In this document: positions 6,694 through 61,358 of the stretch, in pieces | Layout of the letters: each line of letters opens with the position of its first letter | Position numbering within the stretch: position 1 is the first letter of the stretch | From: Candidatus Nitrotoga sp. SPKER | GTDB taxonomy: Bacteria; Pseudomonadota; Gammaproteobacteria; Burkholderiales; Gallionellaceae | DNA: 64,000 nt | Direction of reading: 5' to 3' | Assembly (NCBI GenBank): GCA_003402285.1 | Contig: QFXG01000017.1 | Span: forward strand, 186,001 to 250,000 | Translations under genes and position numbers: made by a program | Notes under the pieces: generated by a model | What the model was told of the DNA's origin: nothing | The model's database searches: none | What the model saw: the letters and a program-made list of their open reading frames with translations, nothing else

Positions 6694-8835
6694 ATGAAAA
6701 AATCTCATATTCGGATACTGGTAGTTGATGATGACATGGTGGACCGTTTAGCCTGTCGCCGTGCTCTTGAAGAATGTTCGGATTACAGTTATGTACTGAC
6801 AGAAGCCGAGACAGGACGGGAGGGGTTACAGTTTGCCGAGGCGCAAAAACCGGACTGTATTTTGCTGGACTACCATATGCCGGATATGAATGGTTTAGAG
6901 TTTTTGACTGAGCTGATTGACGAAGTAGGAGAGATTCCGATTCCCGTGATGATGTTGACCGGCGCTGATAGTGCTTCAGTCGCGGTTGAGGCCATGAAGC
7001 GTGGTGCATGGGATTACATGGTCAAGGATGTAGAGCGCGAGTATCTCAAATTATTACCCACCGTTATCCAGCGCGTGCTGCGCGAGCGGGAGATGCGGAC
7101 GGAAAAAAAACTGACAGAAGACAAGCTGCTCCAAGCCGAGGCTAAATACCGCAACCTGGTAGAGCAAATCCCGGCAATTACCTATATTGCAGCGCTGGAT
7201 GAAGACAATAAAGTTCTTTATATTAGTCCACAAATCAAAGTGTTGGGTTTTTCTCCGACACAATGGCTGGAAACTCCAGGAATTCATCTCGCCCACATTC
7301 ATCAGGAAGACCGGGCACGCGTGTTAACTGAACTAACAAAAAGCCGTGCCAAGGGCACGCCGTTGCGTTGCGAATATCGTCTGATTTCCTGCGATGGAAC
7401 AGTTTTTTGGTTTCGTGATGAAGCAAGCGTAGTGAGGGATGAGTCGGGACGCTCGCTATTTCTTCAAGGAATTCTGGTTGATATTACTGAAAGTAAACAG
7501 ATAGAAGCTGAACTGCGGCAGCACCGCTGGCGTCTTGAGGAGCTAGTGGCAAAGCGTACTGATGAACTTGCGGAAGCGAATAAACATCTGCGTCAGGATA
7601 TTGTGGAACGCAAGCTTGTTCAAGCAGAGCTGATTAACGCCAAGGCAGCCGCAGAAAAAGCCAATCTGACGAAATCGAATTTTCTTTCTAGCATGAGCCA
7701 TGAATTGCGCACACCACTTAATGCCATTCTTGGCTTTGCGCAATTGTTAGAAATTGGTACTCCTGCGCCAACGCCTACCCAAATGACCAGGCTTAAAGAG
7801 ATTCTCCAGGGAGGATGGTATTTGCTGGAGCTGATCAACGAAATTCTGGATCTTGCGACAATTGAATCCGGCAATCTTGCGCTGAATCTAGATTCGGTAT
7901 CTCTGGCTGAGGTCATATCCGAATGCCAGGCTATGATTGAACCTCAGGCACAGCAACATGGCATTCAGTTGATTTTTCCCAAGTTCGATAGTCCTTTGAC
8001 TGTTAAGGCAGATCGGACTCGGTTAAAGCAGGCTTTGATCAACCTGCTATCCAATGCGATTAAATACAATCGTGAGCAGGGAACGGTTGAGGTGACATGC
8101 GTTACAGGTACTTCGGATTACGTTCGCATCAGCGTTCAGGATACGGGAGAGGGATTGTCCCCAGAAAAATTGACGCAACTTTTCCAGCCATTCAATCGTC
8201 TTGGTCAAGAAAATGGAGCCGTCGAAGGGACGGGCATTGGCCTGGCAGTGACCAAGGAATTAGTCGAATTGATGGGTGGTGCAATCGGTGTAGACAGTAC
8301 CGTCGGAGTGGGCAGTGTATTCTGGTTTGAACTAATTTTGGCTACAGAGCCTCAACTTGCCTTGGAAGGATGCGAATCCCAGGAATTGACTGCACCAACT
8401 TATGTTGGTAGTCAGCAGTACACCATGCTCTATTTTGAAGATAATCTGATTAATTCGTCATTAATCAAAGAGCTTATTGAAGAGGATCGTCCAGATATAC
8501 AGTTGTTGATTGCGGGTAACGGCAATCGGGGTATCGAGCTGGCACGTATTCATCTTCCAGATGTAATTTTGATGGATATCACCTTGCCTGATATGAATGG
8601 AATCGAAGCTATGGAGGTTCTTCGTCAAGATCCGCTGACATCGTCTATCCCTATTGTTGCACTGAGTGCGGATGCTATGCCCGATCATATTTTGAAGGGG
8701 TTGGAAGCAGGTTTTTTTCGCTATATCTGTAAGCCCTTCGAACTCAAAGAGTTTATGTTTGTGATTGACGAGGCCATTGCGTGTCGGAAAAGCAGCCTAG
8801 CCGATACGAGTAGAACAAAGGAAATTGAGGATTAA
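6694..8835 (+). CDS. Soluble hybrid histidine kinase (REC-PAS-HisKA-HATPase-REC)
   Basis: 713 residues with no membrane segment. An N-terminal receiver has phosphoacceptor Asp59 (LLDYHMPD). A PAS domain (about 145-268) and a short coiled coil (LVAKRTDELAEANKHL) follow. HisKA carries His336 in SMSHELRTPLNA, and the HATPase shows DTGEGLS and GTGIGLAV. A C-terminal receiver has Asp628 in LMDITLPD. Receivers at both ends suggest a relay node that takes phosphate from the preceding kinase/regulator pair. The gene follows the receiver gene by 52 bases on the same strand. The final output, such as a diguanylate cyclase or transcription factor, is not encoded here. Confidence 0.9.
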   Translation: MKKSHIRILVVDDDMVDRLACRRALEECSDYSYVLTEAETGREGLQFAEAQKPDCILLDYHMPDMNGLEFLTELIDEVGEIPIPVMMLTGADSASVAVEAMKRGAWDYMVKDVEREYLKLLPTVIQRVLREREMRTEKKLTEDKLLQAEAKYRNLVEQIPAITYIAALDEDNKVLYISPQIKVLGFSPTQWLETPGIHLAHIHQEDRARVLTELTKSRAKGTPLRCEYRLISCDGTVFWFRDEASVVRDESGRSLFLQGILVDITESKQIEAELRQHRWRLEELVAKRTDELAEANKHLRQDIVERKLVQAELINAKAAAEKANLTKSNFLSSMSHELRTPLNAILGFAQLLEIGTPAPTPTQMTRLKEILQGGWYLLELINEILDLATIESGNLALNLDSVSLAEVISECQAMIEPQAQQHGIQLIFPKFDSPLTVKADRTRLKQALINLLSNAIKYNREQGTVEVTCVTGTSDYVRISVQDTGEGLSPEKLTQLFQPFNRLGQENGAVEGTGIGLAVTKELVELMGGAIGVDSTVGVGSVFWFELILATEPQLALEGCESQELTAPTYVGSQQYTMLYFEDNLINSSLIKELIEEDRPDIQLLIAGNGNRGIELARIHLPDVILMDITLPDMNGIEAMEVLRQDPLTSSIPIVALSADAMPDHILKGLEAGFFRYICKPFELKEFMFVIDEAIACRKSSLADTSRTKEIED

Positions 8836-53677: not shown

Positions 53678-53746
53678 ATTCAGAATTCTAAGCGGGAAAT
53701 CTTGCGCTTGAATTGATGTAGGTGGCGTGAATAAAGAGGTTGCACA

Positions 53747-54259
53747 ATGAAAATTTATAATCTGTGGCGCACCCTTTCAAACCGCTGGCTATATCTGCCC
53801 GGTACGTTGGTCATTGCCGTGGTGTTTGGCACAGCGCTTTATCTGCAATATGTTCTGCACCAGGAGCCTTGCCCTTTATGCATGATCCAGCGTGTCATCT
53901 TCATTGCTATGTTAGTTTTGTTTGCTATTGCTACGCTGCATAATCCTAAACGCAGCGGTACGAAAGTGTACGGAGCATTGATAGCACTACTGGCGTTGAG
54001 TGGCGTGGTTACTGCCAGTCGCCATATATGGCTTCAGCATTTGCCCAAAGACCAAGTACCTGCCTGTGGTCCAGGCTTGGAGTACATGTTGGGAAATTTC
54101 CCTATGGCAGAAGTGTGGCAGGAACTCATGCACGGCTCTGGTGAATGTGCCGCTAAAGGCTGGACGTTTCTTGGCTTGGGCATCCCGGAATGGTCTTTGT
54201 GTTTGTATGTGGTCTTGGGTGTGTGGGCGGTGATGATTGCACTTAGAAAGCCGATCTAA
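53747..54259 (+). CDS. dsbB: Disulfide bond formation protein B
   Basis: 170 residues with four membrane segments. The first periplasmic loop has CPLCMIQR and the second has cysteines in VPACGPGLEYMLG and SGECAAKGW, the two pairs needed to reoxidise DsbA and transfer electrons to quinone. ATG follows GAGGTTGCACA. Confidence 0.94.
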   Translation: MKIYNLWRTLSNRWLYLPGTLVIAVVFGTALYLQYVLHQEPCPLCMIQRVIFIAMLVLFAIATLHNPKRSGTKVYGALIALLALSGVVTASRHIWLQHLPKDQVPACGPGLEYMLGNFPMAEVWQELMHGSGECAAKGWTFLGLGIPEWSLCLYVVLGVWAVMIALRKPI

Positions 54260-54340
54260 CGCCTTCTGCCAATAATGCCGATGTTAAGTATTTGCTAGTG
54301 TTTTTTAATTTTTATCAAAATAAACCAAAGGAACTAAAAA

Positions 54341-54823
54341 ATGTCAAAACAATGGACAACCCCGCCTGAAATGCTGATTGACTCTAATAAAAAATACACA
54401 GCTACCGTGGTAACCGAGCGCGGGAATATTGTGATCGAGCTTTATCCGCAACATGCCCCCAAGACTGTGAACAACTTTGTTTTCCTGGCGCGAGAGGGAT
54501 TTTATGATGGCCTCATTTTTCACCGCGTGATCCGGGATTTCATGATTCAGGGCGGCGACCCCACGGGTAGTGGACGAGGTGGGCCAGGCTATAAGTTTGA
54601 AGATGAAACCAGTGGTAATCCGCTCAAACATGGCACCGGATATCTCTCTATGGCCAACTCTGGTCCTAATAGCAATGGCAGCCAATTTTTTATTACCCAC
54701 AGCCCCCAGCCTCATTTGGATGGCAAGCATACGGTTTTTGGCAAAGTTACCGAAGGTATGGATGCGGTCAATGCTATTAATCAAGGCGACGTGATGACCA
54801 AGGTTGAGATTAGCGAAGCGTAA
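54341..54823 (+). CDS. Cyclophilin-type peptidyl-prolyl isomerase
   Basis: 160 residues, cytoplasmic by lack of a signal peptide. Catalytic motif [15 protein letters not shown], then [22 protein letters not shown] and [12 protein letters not shown]. Catalyses cis-trans isomerisation of prolyl bonds in folding. RBS AAGGAA before the ATG. It is the last core gene before the degraded island. Confidence 0.94.
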
Positions 54824-54968
54824 AGTGCGAGAGGAACGACTGGGAATTGAGAACTTGATACTCGTTATTAATTTCTACTTTCCAATCTTCATGACTAACG
54901 TGCATTGGGGCCCGGGCATTTGGGATCAACTCCTCCATTATCACTTCAATCCTCTTGCGAGTTTCCAT
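54810..54968 (-). CDS. Small unrecognised reading frame, doubtful
   Basis: 52 codons ([20 protein letters not shown]..., ending SFLSHFTLR). The residue mix looks protein-like, but there is no ribosome binding site and the end overlaps the convergent isomerase gene by 14 bases. Could be a remnant at the island edge. Confidence 0.25.
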
Positions 54969-55143
54969 GCGCTGCTATCGTGAGATTAGCCACCCGGTGA
55001 ACTAGTAGGACCGGAGGGAAAATGAAGGTATGCCTGCCGCCCTGATAGATTACCTGAACGAAGCTCAGAATTCGATTGACCGCTGGATTAAAGAAGGTGG
55101 CATTCAGCAACATGCCTAGCCATCAGTTAGCATAGCGATACGC
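54824..55143. other. Island edge without a firm gene
   Basis: About 320 bases. Apart from the doubtful minus-strand frame, a 29-codon plus-strand frame at 55030-55119 (MPAALIDYLNEAQNSIDRW...) reads like a fragment of something larger. No repeat, tRNA or terminator is apparent. Confidence 0.5.
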
Positions 55144-56728
55144 TCAATTGATCCCTTCAAGGGAAGCTTTTGCCAGCACGTCAATCAATATGACCGATTG
55201 TTTTTCAGATGGGATTTTGACAGGTATCTGCGATGCAATCTGAAGAATGCTCGTTTCCATTGGCGAGAAAAGATTTTTCTTATTACCATCGGCCAGAATC
55301 TGTCGCCATTTTGCAGCGGGAATACTCATTTTTTTTTTGCGCCTCAATTCCGTTGTCAATCTTCTGAACTTTGGCAGCTAACTTTACTTCTTCGACAATG
55401 TTTTCTTTATCAACGAGGCCGCTTAAAAACGGCTTGGGTAGTAAAGACTTTAATTCGCTGGACTTTAATTGAAGGCGATCCCAGCAGGCTTCTTTTTTGC
55501 ACCACTCCGAAATATTTGAAACTCCAGCCATTGGGGTCATGATGCTGTCAAAAACGACCTTGGCGGTTATTTCAATTGCGTCTCTCATCACGTCAGTGAT
55601 GTCCTGCGATTCCCACACCTCCATGAAATCGAATGACTTGCCCATATCAGCGCACAGTCTTGAAAGCAGAGCCAAGGTATAAGCCACAATGTTTGCTCTG
55701 TAACCACCGCTGTACCATGTCTGCACGGACACAATTCTTTCCGTTTTCCTGAACAGGATCGCTCTCGCAATAGCTCGCTTGTAATAGAGCTCATTGAAAT
55801 TATCGGGATTCTTCGCCCACTCCTGTCCAATCCTTTTTGCGTATTGTGCAAAGTTTTTCTGCGCCCCAAGATTTACATAGATCGGCTTGTCTTCCCATAC
55901 ATTCTCAAATTTCGCCAAGTCAGTCTTAGCAAACATCTGGGATGATGGAAATTCTGCCAGAAACTTCTTTTTCTCAGCCTTTGTAATTTTCGCCTGAGCA
56001 TCGGAATACTGCCCACTGGCGCGCTCGTAAAACCATTTACTTTCGCGCAATACGCCTTGCTGAGGTGGCGCCCAGAGGCGTCGAGAAAATTCCTCCATCC
56101 TTATGTGGAACGGATGGTTGGAGAAGAAATCCGCCGCATTAACTTTGTTTTGTGTATTGGCATATTCAGAGATTCTTGGAATAACCTCTTCACCTTTTTC
56201 ACTATCCACCACAGAGAGTTTCATCTGCACAAATATTTTTTCGAGGGAGGCTTTGTCCTTCCTGCTGGTATGAAACAGCGACGCCGTGGTCTGCCCACCG
56301 TTTACAATCTGAAGGTCTTTTATCTCCCTGATATAGATACCATCCGCCTTGGGTTCGGTAATCACCTCGCGGGCTGTCGCTGTAATCCCATTATTATAGG
56401 CAAAGAACATTTCCGGATCAGTGAGAATAGTAGAGCGCATTCCCTTATTAACCTTGCCCCGAGCCTGCAGAAAACAGCGAACATTCTGCTCCAGCAGCCT
56501 GTCGTCATATTTGCCATATAGATCGCCCAGGATCGTTGCAGGCATGACCATCAAGTAGGATTCGTAGTCAGCAGATTTTATGTGTGCGGGCAGGCATGGA
56601 ATGCCCTGTCCGAACATGGACTCAAAATCAATAACCACCTCCCCCTTGGCACCACGGGAAGTCTTAATCCGGTGCTGGAGATGGGCAGAAATTTGGTACG
56701 GTCTTCGACGATGCCGAGTATCGCGACT
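55144..56728 (-). pseudogene. AIPR (abortive phage resistance) family gene, truncated and frameshifted
   Basis: The AIPR core is unmistakable: VVIDFESMFGQGIPCL, LYGKYDDRLLEQNVRCFLQ, GKVNKGMRSTI and MFFAYNNGITATA. The frame opens only at 56728 (TAA at 56729), leaving about 30 codons before the core, whereas family members have a long N-terminal region. At the other end the main frame runs out at 55283, while the natural ending (RQILADGNKKNLFSP, QIPVKIPSEKQSVILIDVLA) continues in another frame to 55144. The switch occurs at an A10 run (coding strand) near 55330. Either the gene is decayed or the run is slippery. AIPR proteins occur in restriction-modification-linked defence operons. Confidence 0.82.
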
Positions 56729-57028
56729 TTAAGCAGCAAAATAGTAAGCATGGTCTTCCTGAAAGCAAGCCGCAATATAACCTACACATAGCAAAGAAGC
56801 AGGCTGTAAACGTCCGATCTTGCCACAGTGGAAGGCGCCCGCCAGACTACGACAGTATTTCTTATCCGTGGTCAAAAGGTTATGCTGTCACCCATTAAAC
56901 AGATTTATTAGGTAGGCAGATTTTGAGTGATTTTTTCAACAAACCGAAGCAGCCCTTATTCACATTGCAACTCGGCATGTGCCGAAAAAGGCGGAGCCGT
57001 TGCCAAGTGATAGATAGATACTAAGCGT
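56729..57028. other. Divergent intergenic region
   Basis: 300 bases between the broken AIPR start and the nuclease-helicase gene. Neither strand continues the AIPR N-terminus here, so that part was lost rather than frameshifted. Presumably holds the promoter of the nuclease-helicase gene; I see no clear boxes. Confidence 0.55.
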
Positions 57029-59005
57029 ATGAAGCGAGAGTACTACTCTGGTTCTATTTGTAACTTCCTTCGTTCTTCAACCAAGGAGATACTTGGCATA
57101 CTTGCACTAAATAATGATTTTGCACTGATCCAAACTCAACGCGGCTCATGGGTTACACAAATAGAAATGCTTCACGAAATCCTTAAACCATACGAAGGTT
57201 CGATTTATTTCGAATACTCCATCCCCCGCATGGGGCGACGAATTGATGTTGTGCTATTGATTGGCCCTGTAATCTTTGTACTCGAGTTTAAAGTAGGTGA
57301 AAGTGAATTTACCTCTTCCGCCATTGATCAGGTATATGACTACGCATTGGATTTGAAGAACTTTCACGAATCCAGCCACGGGCAATACATTGCTCCAGTT
57401 CTGATTGCTACTAATGCAAGAGATGCTGTGCCAATAGTTGCCGTAACTCCTCAAAACGACAGGCTACTTTTTCCAATAAAGTCAGGTATTGCGCAGCTCG
57501 GTTGCGTAATCGAAGATGTGTTGCGTTTTGTCGAAGGTGACGACATAGATGTGAATCAATGGGAGAGCGGTCGTTATTGCCCAACTCCAACGATCATTGA
57601 AGCAGCGATGGCTCTTTACAACAACCATTCTGTATCTGAAATCACGCGAAGTGATGCAAGTGCTATCAATCTAAGCCAGACCTCTGCCTCAATTTCTGAA
57701 ATCATCAGATTTTCGAGAGAAAATTCGCGCAAATCAATTTGTTTGGTGACAGGTGTTCCTGGGTCTGGCAAGACATTGGTGGGGCTTGATGTTGCCACCA
57801 AACACATTAATCCAGACGATGACTTGTATAGCGTGTATCTGTCTGGTAACGGCCCGCTTGTGAAAATACTTTGTGAAGCGCTTGCGCGCGATAGGGTCAT
57901 GCGTGGCAGTGAAACAGGAGGGAAGATTAAAATTGGTACGGCTCGTAGCGATGTCAAAACGTTTATCCAGAATGTTCACCACTTCCGTGATGAATGCCTA
58001 CTTGATACGTCGAGGCCACCCATTGAGCACGTTGCAATATTCGACGAAGCTCAGCGCGCTTGGAATATGGAGCAAACTTCATCTTTCATGTTGCGTAAGA
58101 AAAATACCCCCGATTTTAACCAATCAGAGCCTGAATTTTTGATCTCCTGCATGGATCGTCATACGGATTGGACTGTTATTGTTTGTCTTGTTGGTGGCGG
58201 GCAAGAGATCAATACAGGAGAAGCTGGCATCGGGGAGTGGATTGATTCGGTAAATCGGTCATTTCCAGATTGGCATATTCACATTTCATCGCGCCTAACA
58301 GATGCCGAGTACAACGCAGAAAAAATACTGGAAGAGATGAAGCTGCGCCAACAGGTGACCTACCATGACGGGCTGCATCTGGCGGTGTCGATGCGCTCAT
58401 TCCGAGCAGAAGATGTTTCGCTTCTTGTAAAACACTTGCTTGACCTTGAGGTCAATTCTGCTCGGCAAACTTATGAGAAGGTGAGAGACAAATATCCGAT
58501 TGTAATCACGCGTGATTTAAGCAAAGCAAAGAAGTGGCTGAGAGGACAAGCGCGCGGATCAGAACGGTATGGAATTGTCGTTTCATCGCAAGCTGAGAGG
58601 CTTAAGCCTCATGCGATAGATGTGAAATCGCCTATGGATCCTATTCACTGGTTTCTAGACGGAAAGGATGATGTGCGCTCTTCGTACTATCTGGAGGATG
58701 TTGCCACTGAATTTCACGTCCAGGGTTTGGAGCTGGATTGGGCGTGCGTAACATGGGATGCAGATTTTCGACATTGTCCAGGCGGATGGAGCCATCATTC
58801 GTTTTGTGGAAACCGCTGGAACAAAATAAACAAGGAAGAACGAAAGCAATACTTGAAAAATGCTTATCGAGTTTTATTGACTAGAGCTCGTCAAGGAATG
58901 GTCCTGGTTGTTCCGGAAGGTAATAAGGATGACCATACGCGTAACTCCCAGTTCTATGATGGAACATTCAGCTATCTAAATGCAATTGGCTTTCCAGTAA
59001 TCTAA
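57029..59005 (+). CDS. Nuclease-helicase fusion (RecB-like nuclease + DUF2075/Schlafen-type helicase)
   Basis: 658 residues, intact. The N-terminal domain (about 55-110) has a RecB-like PD-(D/E)xK centre: Asp73 ([11 protein letters not shown]), Glu86-Phe-Lys88 (VLEFK) and a following QxxxY (Gln101-Tyr105). The helicase part has Walker A GVPGSGKT (242-249), Walker B FDEAQRAW (Asp339-Glu340), a later [19 protein letters not shown] and [13 protein letters not shown] near the end, as in DUF2075 proteins. The combination suggests DNA or RNA cleavage coupled to ATP-driven translocation, probably in phage defence. The gene lies in opposite orientation between two broken defence genes. RBS weak. Confidence 0.82.
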
Positions 59006-60196
59006 TAGTGAATTGAACTGCGCTTTTGGCTACATCGTACGCCACACTTGCGACCGTGCAATTGCACGGCAGTGTCAGGCCTCTGCCTGCATGGTTGGTC
59101 AATACATCAACACAACCATGTCGATACCAGTCTGGAAATATTTTGGGGCGGCCAGTATAGCTCATGGATTCTGTCCCTGCCATCAACCTGCGTTTCTGTA
59201 TGGTCACCAAGGCCTCGTTAATTTTTTCGACTGTTTGCGACAGGCCGTTACTTTGCCCTTTGCGATACCAAGCCTCCGAGGCCATTGAGCCAAGAATCTC
59301 ACGCCAGAGTTCAAGTGTGTCAGGCTCTTTGGATACAGTGCTGCGTATCTTTGGAAGATCACCGATTACCTGGGCAACAGTGGTCGCTTCTGATTCCTGG
59401 AGCGTTTCTGGTGTGATATGAATATCCTCCCGAATGCCTAGAATAAGCATGCGGTGCCGCGCCTGCGGGATGCCATATTTTTCGGCTTTTACCAGAAAAT
59501 CTTCTGGCTCACATTTTTCAGGGGGTTTGTTATCCACCAACGAAAACAGTGGTAGCCAAGAACAGAACTCTGGCTATTGACTGCCACGTCCGGCTTTCGC
59601 AGATCGCTCAATATACTTTCAATGATTTTTTTACCGGAATGCTGTGCGGAAAGTATTCCCTTCACATTCTCCATCACGAACACTGGTGGCCGGTGATCCG
59701 CGATGATCCGCAGATATTCCTTGTAAAGAAAATGGCGCACGTCGTCTTCAAAATCAGGGTTGGTAGTCCGCATGCGCGCGCCCGACAAGCGAATATGCCT
59801 GGCAGGGGGGCCGCCGGCCAGCACCCATTTTTTACTGCCATTTAGTCTTTGACTGATGAGGTTTTTCACCTCATGCGCTGGGGTCTTGCCGAGCTTGATA
59901 CACTGCGCCTCTTCAGCCGCAGCCTTAGCCTCCTGAGGATAAAAATCAAATAATTCTGCCTTGGTAATCTCCCCCCTGGCATAAGACCAGTATTCCGGCG
60001 GAATTATTTTGGGATCAAACTGACGATAAAAACTACGCAGCAGCAATGTGCTGTGCGCGGTCGGGTCTTTTTCAATCGAAAGCGCGAGCCTGAATGAAGG
60101 ATTTTCTGCGCCATGACTAAAAGCAGCAAAGCCCTCACCCAGTCCACCTGGGCCTGCGAAAACGTCAATTACTTTATATGTTTCCTGTTCAGCCAT
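58968..60196 (-). pseudogene. DNA (cytosine-5) methyltransferase, multiply disrupted
   Basis: The start (MAEQETYKVIDVFAGPGGLGEG) and FVMENVKG are typical motifs I and VI. After GGPP the catalytic PCQ is missing: the frame reads ARHIRLSGARMR, whereas one base more in the C-run and two more in the following GC-run would restore P-C-Q-A-Y-S-L-V-G-R-A-R. A second break follows GYHCF, where one T more joins the first frame (60196-59489) to the second (59540-58968), which carries VKAEKYGIPQARHRM (motif VIII). After VDVLTNHAGRG (about 59085) homology ends; motifs IX-X are gone. The gene overlaps the end of the convergent nuclease-helicase gene. Confidence 0.85.
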
Positions 60197-60199
60197 TAT

Positions 60200-60343
60200 T
60201 TATTCCACATAAGCCACATTTTGTGGCATCGGGTAAATCAAGATGATGTCGTGGATCGGGTTGCCACGATTCTCAAACTCGGTCAACTCAAACTTGACGC
60301 CAAGCTCTTTGAAGATGCAGTCGATGAATTCTTTGGTGTTCAT
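60200..60343 (-). CDS. Small protein upstream of the methyltransferase
   Basis: 47 codons (MNTKEFIDCIFKELG..., ending PMPQNVAYVE). The stop lies 3 bases before the methyltransferase ATG, suggesting a shared transcript. I do not recognise it. It could be a tiny leader gene or the trimmed end of a longer one; no ribosome binding site stands out. Confidence 0.45.
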   Translation of the reverse strand: MNTKEFIDCIFKELGVKFELTEFENRGNPIHDIILIYPMPQNVAYVE

Positions 60344-60521
60344 GCGATTTTTTTGGCCCGAGGGGATTTATTTTGATTGGTCTTGGCAGTAGCCTTTGCT
60401 TTCCCTCTGGCGATATTTATTGCTATGGAAGTGCAGTAATGATCAGCATAATCCTAACGTTTGATTCTACCTTACCCGAGGAGCGAACAGACGGCACGGC
60501 ATTACACCACTAAAAATATCT

Positions 60522-61124
60522 TCAAGCAGAGGTGCCATCCGGTTGCACGCCCCGAGCCAGATAAACAGCCTTGTTTTTAACGCTGCCTTCATCGCGTATC
60601 TTGACCCACAGGGCATCGAAGAACACTAACGGGTACATCGGCTCCAGCTGCCGACTCTGCCAGTCCAGCACCTCGTCCATAATCTCGCCAGTGATGGTGG
60701 AAATAAGGTCGGGCGATAACTCTAGCCCATAGAGTTCGGTCAGGTGCCCTTGGATTTCCCTGACCGGTAATCCTCTGGCATAAAGTGAGATCACCTTGTC
60801 GTCGAATCCCGGCAGGTGGCGCTGATGCTTGGTGATCAGTTGCGGCTCGAAACTACCGTCACGGTCACGTGGAATATTCAGGGCCAGCCGGGTTTCCGTT
60901 GTCGGCACGGTCTTCTTGCTGCTGCCGTTCTTGTGATTACGCGAGGGTGTTGTTGCACCATGCTGTTGTTCAAGATGGTGATTCAACTCGGCTTGGAGCA
61001 TGCGCTATGCTAGTGCCTTCTTGAGTTGCCCGAACAATCCTGCATCGCTGAACAGGGATTGCGGATCAGATGGATTTATTCCTTCAAGTAGCTTGTCCAG
61101 GATGGATGGGTCTAGTGTCGTCAT
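60522..61124 (-). pseudogene. IS256-family transposase remnant
   Basis: From ATG 61124 the frame gives 39 residues (MTTLDPSILDKLLEG...), then TAG at 61005-61007 where the family has GAG (AERMLQAEL). It continues in frame with QAELNHHLEQQHG, LPGFDDKVISLYARGLPVREI, the first catalytic Asp in FFDALWVKIRDEG, and YLARGVQPDGT, where it stops at 60522. The remaining two thirds, with the other two acidic residues, are missing. It is therefore dead twice over. Confidence 0.88.
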
Positions 61125-61195
61125 ACGAGTCCTTTCTATTGAAACTTATTAGCATCGTATGACTTCTTTCACACAAAAATTCTGACAGGTTCGCC
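60522..61195 (-). mobile_element. 5' part of an IS256-family insertion sequence
   Basis: The transposase remnant plus about 70 bases upstream. The outer end is probably near 61195, where ACCTGTCAGAATTTTTGTG (minus strand) looks like an IS256-type terminal repeat. The opposite end is absent, so the element was cut by a deletion at about 60520. Confidence 0.65.
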
Positions 61196-61244
61196 ATGGG
61201 TGGCTCACGGTTTTATCGGCCCCTTTGATGGGCTCATTTAATAA

Positions 61245-61265
61245 GCCCCCGCTTTGCCGGGGGGC
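61245..61265 (-). terminator. GC-rich hairpin after the sulfotransferase gene
   Basis: GCCCCC (61245-61250) pairs with GGGGGC (61260-61265) around a short loop. On the minus strand TTATTAAAT follows, so it would end the leftward transcript of the polysaccharide cluster. The T-run is weak. Confidence 0.55.
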
Positions 61266-61358
61266 ATTTAACTTCGACTTGTGTGGCTGAATTTCTTATC
61301 GATAGCTCAGTGTTTTTTAGCCTTTGGCGTGCAGTCAGAGTCCCATGATTTCATCCGA

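Follow-up and report, generated by a model that had tools for sequence, protein, structure and literature searches.

The 64,000-nucleotide stretch of Candidatus Nitrotoga sp. SPKER considered here (the window; positions 186001–250000 of a 326-kb contig) carries what its sequence identifies as an antivirus operon without its middle genes. Both end genes, for a C5-methyltransferase (Dcm) and an AIPR protein, are broken, and the gap between them holds an intact predicted antivirus gene, PDC-S41 (S41 below). This gene looks, from the DNA at its borders, to have been cut from a different defense hotspot, with slices of its hotspot neighbors still attached. A preliminary description of the locus had proposed that the middle genes were swapped for a different defense module. 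Its genes, strands, and truncations for the Dcm/S41/AIPR block are confirmed, as are its open reading frame (ORF) lengths, with corrections to the limits, and the swap itself is supported: three related loci (L028, L029, and L033) keep an intact operon, and the window gap differs from theirs. The parts of the locus are the following.

54943–61272, no strand: entire island, lacking in the genus-mates G003, G017, and G015
55143–56674, minus strand: AIPR remnant; PF10592 complete, N-terminal 177 residues gone, 2-nucleotide deletion near 55331
55283–56638, minus strand: remaining AIPR open frame, 451 amino acids, GTG start (ORF list)
56669–56674, no strand: CCGGTG, 6-nucleotide word common to AIPR (L028) and uppP at the join (alignments)
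56669–56751, minus strand: uppP slice, first 83 nucleotides, diverged, unlike the genome's own intact uppP
56752–56886, no strand: DNA upstream of uppP, collinear with G137
57029–59005, plus strand: PDC-S41 gene, 658 amino acids, complete (Pfam, PADLOC, motifs)
59042–59077, plus strand: DUF2357/PDDEXK_7 gene slice (match 59042–59078, 30/37 nucleotides)
59078–60213, minus strand: Dcm remnant; 3' part gone, three small deletions, PCQ region destroyed
60522–61001, minus strand: Mutator-family transposase fragment (PF00872, Pfam), on the right flank of the island

The end genes can be read closely against L028, where window 55151–56674 matches 10490–8965 at 92% and window 59078–60213 matches 2418–1279 at 89%. 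Between the two inner limits lie 6546 bases in L028 and 2403 in the window. These limits are not due to chance, because alignment of the junctions to L028, L029, L030, and L033 gives 56674–56678 and 59078 every time. The loss of the AIPR 5' end stands as first described, with its limit moved from 56728 to 56674–56678, since 56669–56751 is the 5' end of uppP; the loss of the Dcm 3' end stands too, with homology covering 59078–60213 in place of 58968–60196. The gap is indeed filled by a complete plus-strand gene, at whose sides the uppP and DUF2357 slices had gone unseen. The AIPR genes nearest to that of the window (85%–96%) come from five records, labeled Nitrosomonadales, Nitrosospira, Burkholderiales, Sulfuricella, and Nitrosomonas.

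The AIPR protein of L028 has 690 residues, of which the window match begins at residue 178, and thus nearly all of the AIPR_N domain (PF22879, residues 31–179 in L028) is gone. PADLOC places the piece at 199–581 of the 598 positions of its MzaE model. A 2-nucleotide deletion in an A-run near the 3' end shifts the frame, which then stops at 55283, so that part of the C-terminus is lost as well. Dcm has deletions of 1, 2, and 1 nucleotides relative to L028. The first two leave the PCQ region scrambled (GGPPCQAYSLVG in L028, GGPPARHIRLSG in the window), the last splits the frame near 59550, and Pfam finds DNA_methylase on two separate pieces. Of the changes specific to the window, AIPR has 3 that replace a residue and 18 that are silent (3 and 24 in L028), and at most about a quarter of these post-date the loss of constraint (5% level, simple mixture), which argues that the break of the operon is recent. 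In Dcm the corresponding counts are 11 and 23 (5 and 9 in L028), a difference that is not significant. Since PF10592 is covered from 1 to 307 of 308 in the remaining AIPR frame and the AIPR changes are mostly silent, one might imagine that shortened AIPR and Dcm are still useful, forming a new three-gene system with S41. This is most improbable given the scrambled PCQ region and split frame of Dcm, the truncation of AIPR at both ends, and the absence of S41 from all 80 AIPR loci. The operon surrounding S41 is a relic.

The edges of the insert show where S41 may have come from. The stretch from 56669 on consists of the uppP 5' end and the DNA that precedes uppP, and it accounts for most of the matches when window 56640–57110 is searched against the family (75 of 158 genomes, own included). 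CCGGTG, with which the uppP slice begins, also closes the AIPR homology to L028; hence the join has six shared bases, and it was likely made by microhomology. Five relatives agree with the slice at 60–71 of 83 nucleotides. The genome's own intact uppP was rejected as its source, agreeing at only 51 of 83. In G137, uppP and S41 are divergent neighbors, collinear with the window and 72% identical over 56669–56886. At the other edge, 59042–59078 matches the DUF2357 gene of L030 at 30 of 37 nucleotides (0 of 200 shuffles as good), and the DUF2357 gene of L196 (G050) gives the same score at the same place. In 59006–59041 there is only a faint likeness, by eye, after 59026.

A transposon or integrase element might also have carried S41 into the operon, and a Mutator-family transposase fragment does lie ~1.4 kb from the insert. 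This too is highly improbable. There is no repeat of at least 12 nucleotides within either insert edge, and 56641–56700 and 59051–59110 share no word of at least seven nucleotides, direct or inverted; thus, no target duplication is seen. S41 homology in relatives is limited to ~57013–59007 (among family genomes it starts at or after 57013 and, where the match reaches, ends at 58992–59007, the gene end), and the other insert frames of at least 80 amino acids all overlap S41 (the family scan covered S41 only). With neither terminal repeats nor target duplication at the insert edges, transposon insertion was rejected.

S41 is found in 16 of 158 family genomes, own included. Beyond the window, we looked at the neighborhoods of 13 full-length genes (G073 and 12 from the family), leaving out partial genes in G161, G152, and G041 and partial or distant ones outside the family in G071 and G068 (twice). 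In five of the 13 (G137, G119, G190, G179, and G182), S41 lies between uppP and thiC; in G030, thiC alone is in reach. S41 is followed by a gene for a NERD-UvrD helicase in G113 and G119, by a fragment of one in G134, and by a gene for an Mrr-like nuclease in G137 and G073. DUF2357 matches occur in 13 family genomes, and of the five whose surroundings were read, G039 has a Dcm2-McrB-DUF2357 module between uppP and thiC, G146 has a DUF2357 gene adjoining thiC, and three show neither uppP nor thiC. The uppP and DUF2357 pieces at the two insert edges therefore indicate a single kind of place. The order and orientation of uppP, S41, and DUF2357 would fit a single cut from that hotspot.

This fit also bears on a stepwise history, in which the middle genes were deleted first and S41, with the uppP and DUF2357 slices, arrived one piece at a time among the debris of an island in decay. 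Three gene pieces, separated by small gaps, make the insert a patchwork, a transposase fragment adjoins the island, and window-specific changes are in excess in Dcm relative to AIPR (34 and 21, versus 14 and 27 in L028; Fisher p 0.013), so the two ends may differ in history. Against this, the pieces are ordered and oriented as one cut would leave them, and the few AIPR changes after the loss of constraint leave little time for many steps. We consider the stepwise history unlikely.

Several observations weigh against a transfer from the uppP–thiC hotspot in one piece, although we consider it likely. Within the stretch read, seven of the 13 S41 loci lack both uppP and thiC, and uppP, S41, and DUF2357 were not seen together in any genome, which makes the donor a composite drawn from two locus types. 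The DUF2357 slice is diverged as well as short, and its start by eye may be near 59026. Seven other comparisons run beside the L030 match did not rise above shuffles; of nine further DUF2357 loci set against 100 shuffles, three were barely better and six were not; and blastn with 58990–59090 in the 158 family genomes returned only the window itself. Of a 13-nucleotide near-repeat (12/13), one copy lies within S41 and the other spans the Dcm join; this is taken as chance. S41 itself has 20 replacement and 31 silent window-specific changes, whereas four relatives pooled have 26 and 99 (Fisher p 0.014); after polarizing, the counts are 14:14 versus 21:41. This pattern possibly reflects weaker constraint or adaptation. 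No promoter-like site precedes the gene in a scan that scores fewer sites here than in shuffles, so that this result carries little weight. Finally, the junctions are seen in one genome and one assembly only, as they would be if the assembly were a chimera of Dcm/AIPR ends and an S41 segment from different molecules. That is very unlikely in a 2.98-Mb genome of 32 contigs that is rated 100% complete with 0.04 contamination, on a contig of 326 kb, and a chimera does not predict the small inactivating deletions in the gene ends.

The uppP–thiC interval (L177, L180, L182, L186, L188, L189, and L209) is a defense hotspot of the family, with cargo that differs by genome: S41, NERD-UvrD, Mrr-like, Vsr-like (L182, by eye), and Dcm2-McrB-DUF2357. 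At L181:5404–5945 (G124), a Fic-like gene (by eye) lies beside an intact uppP and continues into another, truncated copy of the uppP 5' end.

The place of the island in the genus is variable. A search with window 53700–54900 finds all 19 genus genomes, own included, and 13 of the other 18 were fetched. In G003, G017, and G015, right-flank homology (from 61273–61313) resumes 71–109 base pairs after left-flank homology ends. In the stretch read of the other ten, there is a 41–base pair match in G007 and none in nine. The best AIPR match in the genus-mates is 39% (G012), and this combined with the empty sites makes the operon foreign to the genus as far as sampled. A 20-nucleotide AIPR match in the G003 empty site (18/20, above 60 shuffles) was rejected as a relic and taken as chance, because the same native stretch is readable in G007 and G017.

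The preliminary description had called the product of S41 a RecB-like nuclease fused to a DUF2075 helicase. The helicase is confirmed: the C-terminus is a Schlafen group 3 (DUF2075-type) superfamily 1 helicase (PF09848, 275.7 bits against a cut-off of 24). The nuclease holds by its motifs, with no Pfam nuclease match to that part and no solved PDB chain matching by sequence. D73, E86-x-K88, Q101xxxY105, Walker A, DEAQ, and TRAR are invariant in 14 proteins, and the N-terminus fits D ... E-x-K ... QxxxY, which we take to be the RecB/Cas4-like PD-(D/E)XK pattern. PADLOC matches PDC-S41 over the full length (residues 1–656 to 1–651 of 657, 938 bits). A single protein would likely combine ATP-driven unwinding and cutting of foreign DNA. 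In the S41 tree, the window groups weakly with G113 (81/80) inside the family clade, and inner branches are mostly poorly supported.

A phage record, H5 (MT836127.1), holds a full-length S41 relative. A phage origin was rejected, as this one record reaches 48% identity and a search of viral_contigs with six peptide patterns, able to detect only close relatives, found none. Relatives also occur in four plasmid records, at no more than 49%.

A second operon of the same type, at 1625–9407 of L030 (a Nitrosospira metagenome-assembled genome), still has Dcm up to residue 496 and AIPR from residue 18 onward. Its middle holds a Dcm2 fragment (by eye), an AAA protein (Pfam AAA_22 and AAA_5, PADLOC PDC-M26A; McrB-like by eye), and a DUF2357/PDDEXK_7 protein. 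Module homology ends at 7398–7399 in four of the five loci read, and AIPR homology begins at 7399. By these alignments, L030 appears to have lost the middle of this operon too, between Dcm and AIPR as in the window, and to hold in its place a module also found at uppP–thiC; the contig could be chimeric. It is the swapped one among the near relatives with a readable middle, the other three being intact, as is L206 (G095), probably the same record as L029. No swap rate is drawn from this, because the window was chosen for being swapped. Direct derivation of the window from an L030-like swap was rejected because DUF2357 there runs with Dcm/AIPR beside AIPR, and here against them beside Dcm. Window 55018–55125 is 86% identical to L030 688–795, at the opposite end of the operon (before Dcm), on the same strand relative to the operon. 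It is conceivable, if rather doubtful, that the Dcm–AIPR interval is a recurrent swap site for uppP–thiC cargo (S41 in the window, Dcm2-McrB-DUF2357 in L030) in which the outer gene ends are kept. Cargo would then pass between unrelated hotspots within the frame of a dying operon, and uppP slices would trace the donor.

In PMC9523054, the operon type is presented as a putative system that recalls mzaABCDE, in which MzaA is a sigma factor. We call the L028 operon Mza-like because it matches the NCBIfam models for MzaB–E far below their cut-offs (349/850, 528/1500, 86/420, and, for MzaE, 364/1050 bits); it differs in this from MzaBCDE as modeled by PADLOC and NCBIfam. The parts of PMC2292703 consulted describe MORC neighborhoods with methylases and Vsr, name AIPR in a legend, and mention gene displacement in operons. 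The likeness lies in methyltransferase, Vsr, MORC, helicase, and restriction-enzyme-fold genes sharing one neighborhood; there, however, single genes are replaced by equivalents, whereas in the window an inverted, unrelated gene, with slices of the donor at its sides, has taken over the whole middle. Compared with an intact operon of the Dcm–AIPR type, the window keeps only the broken methyltransferase and AIPR ends. The S41 protein agrees in full with the PADLOC phage defense candidate, but its relatives are found at other places, in some cases ahead of a NERD-UvrD or Mrr gene, while the window copy sits in a gutted operon. Within the paper library searched, the name PDC-S41 was not found, nor was any paper that joins DUF2075 with three defense terms or that joins uppP, thiC, defense, and hotspot.

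As a rule, turnover of defense islands is deduced from the presence or absence of genes. In Acinetobacter, Ssp systems reportedly replace restriction-modification, a similar case of one defense system displacing another. Here, a single replacement is legible nearly base by base, from the gutted operon and the kind of donor hotspot to the likely microhomology join and the apparently recent death of the old genes. It would link two places of defense genes within one bacterial family, and it gives PDC-S41 a home context and a set of invariant motifs to test.
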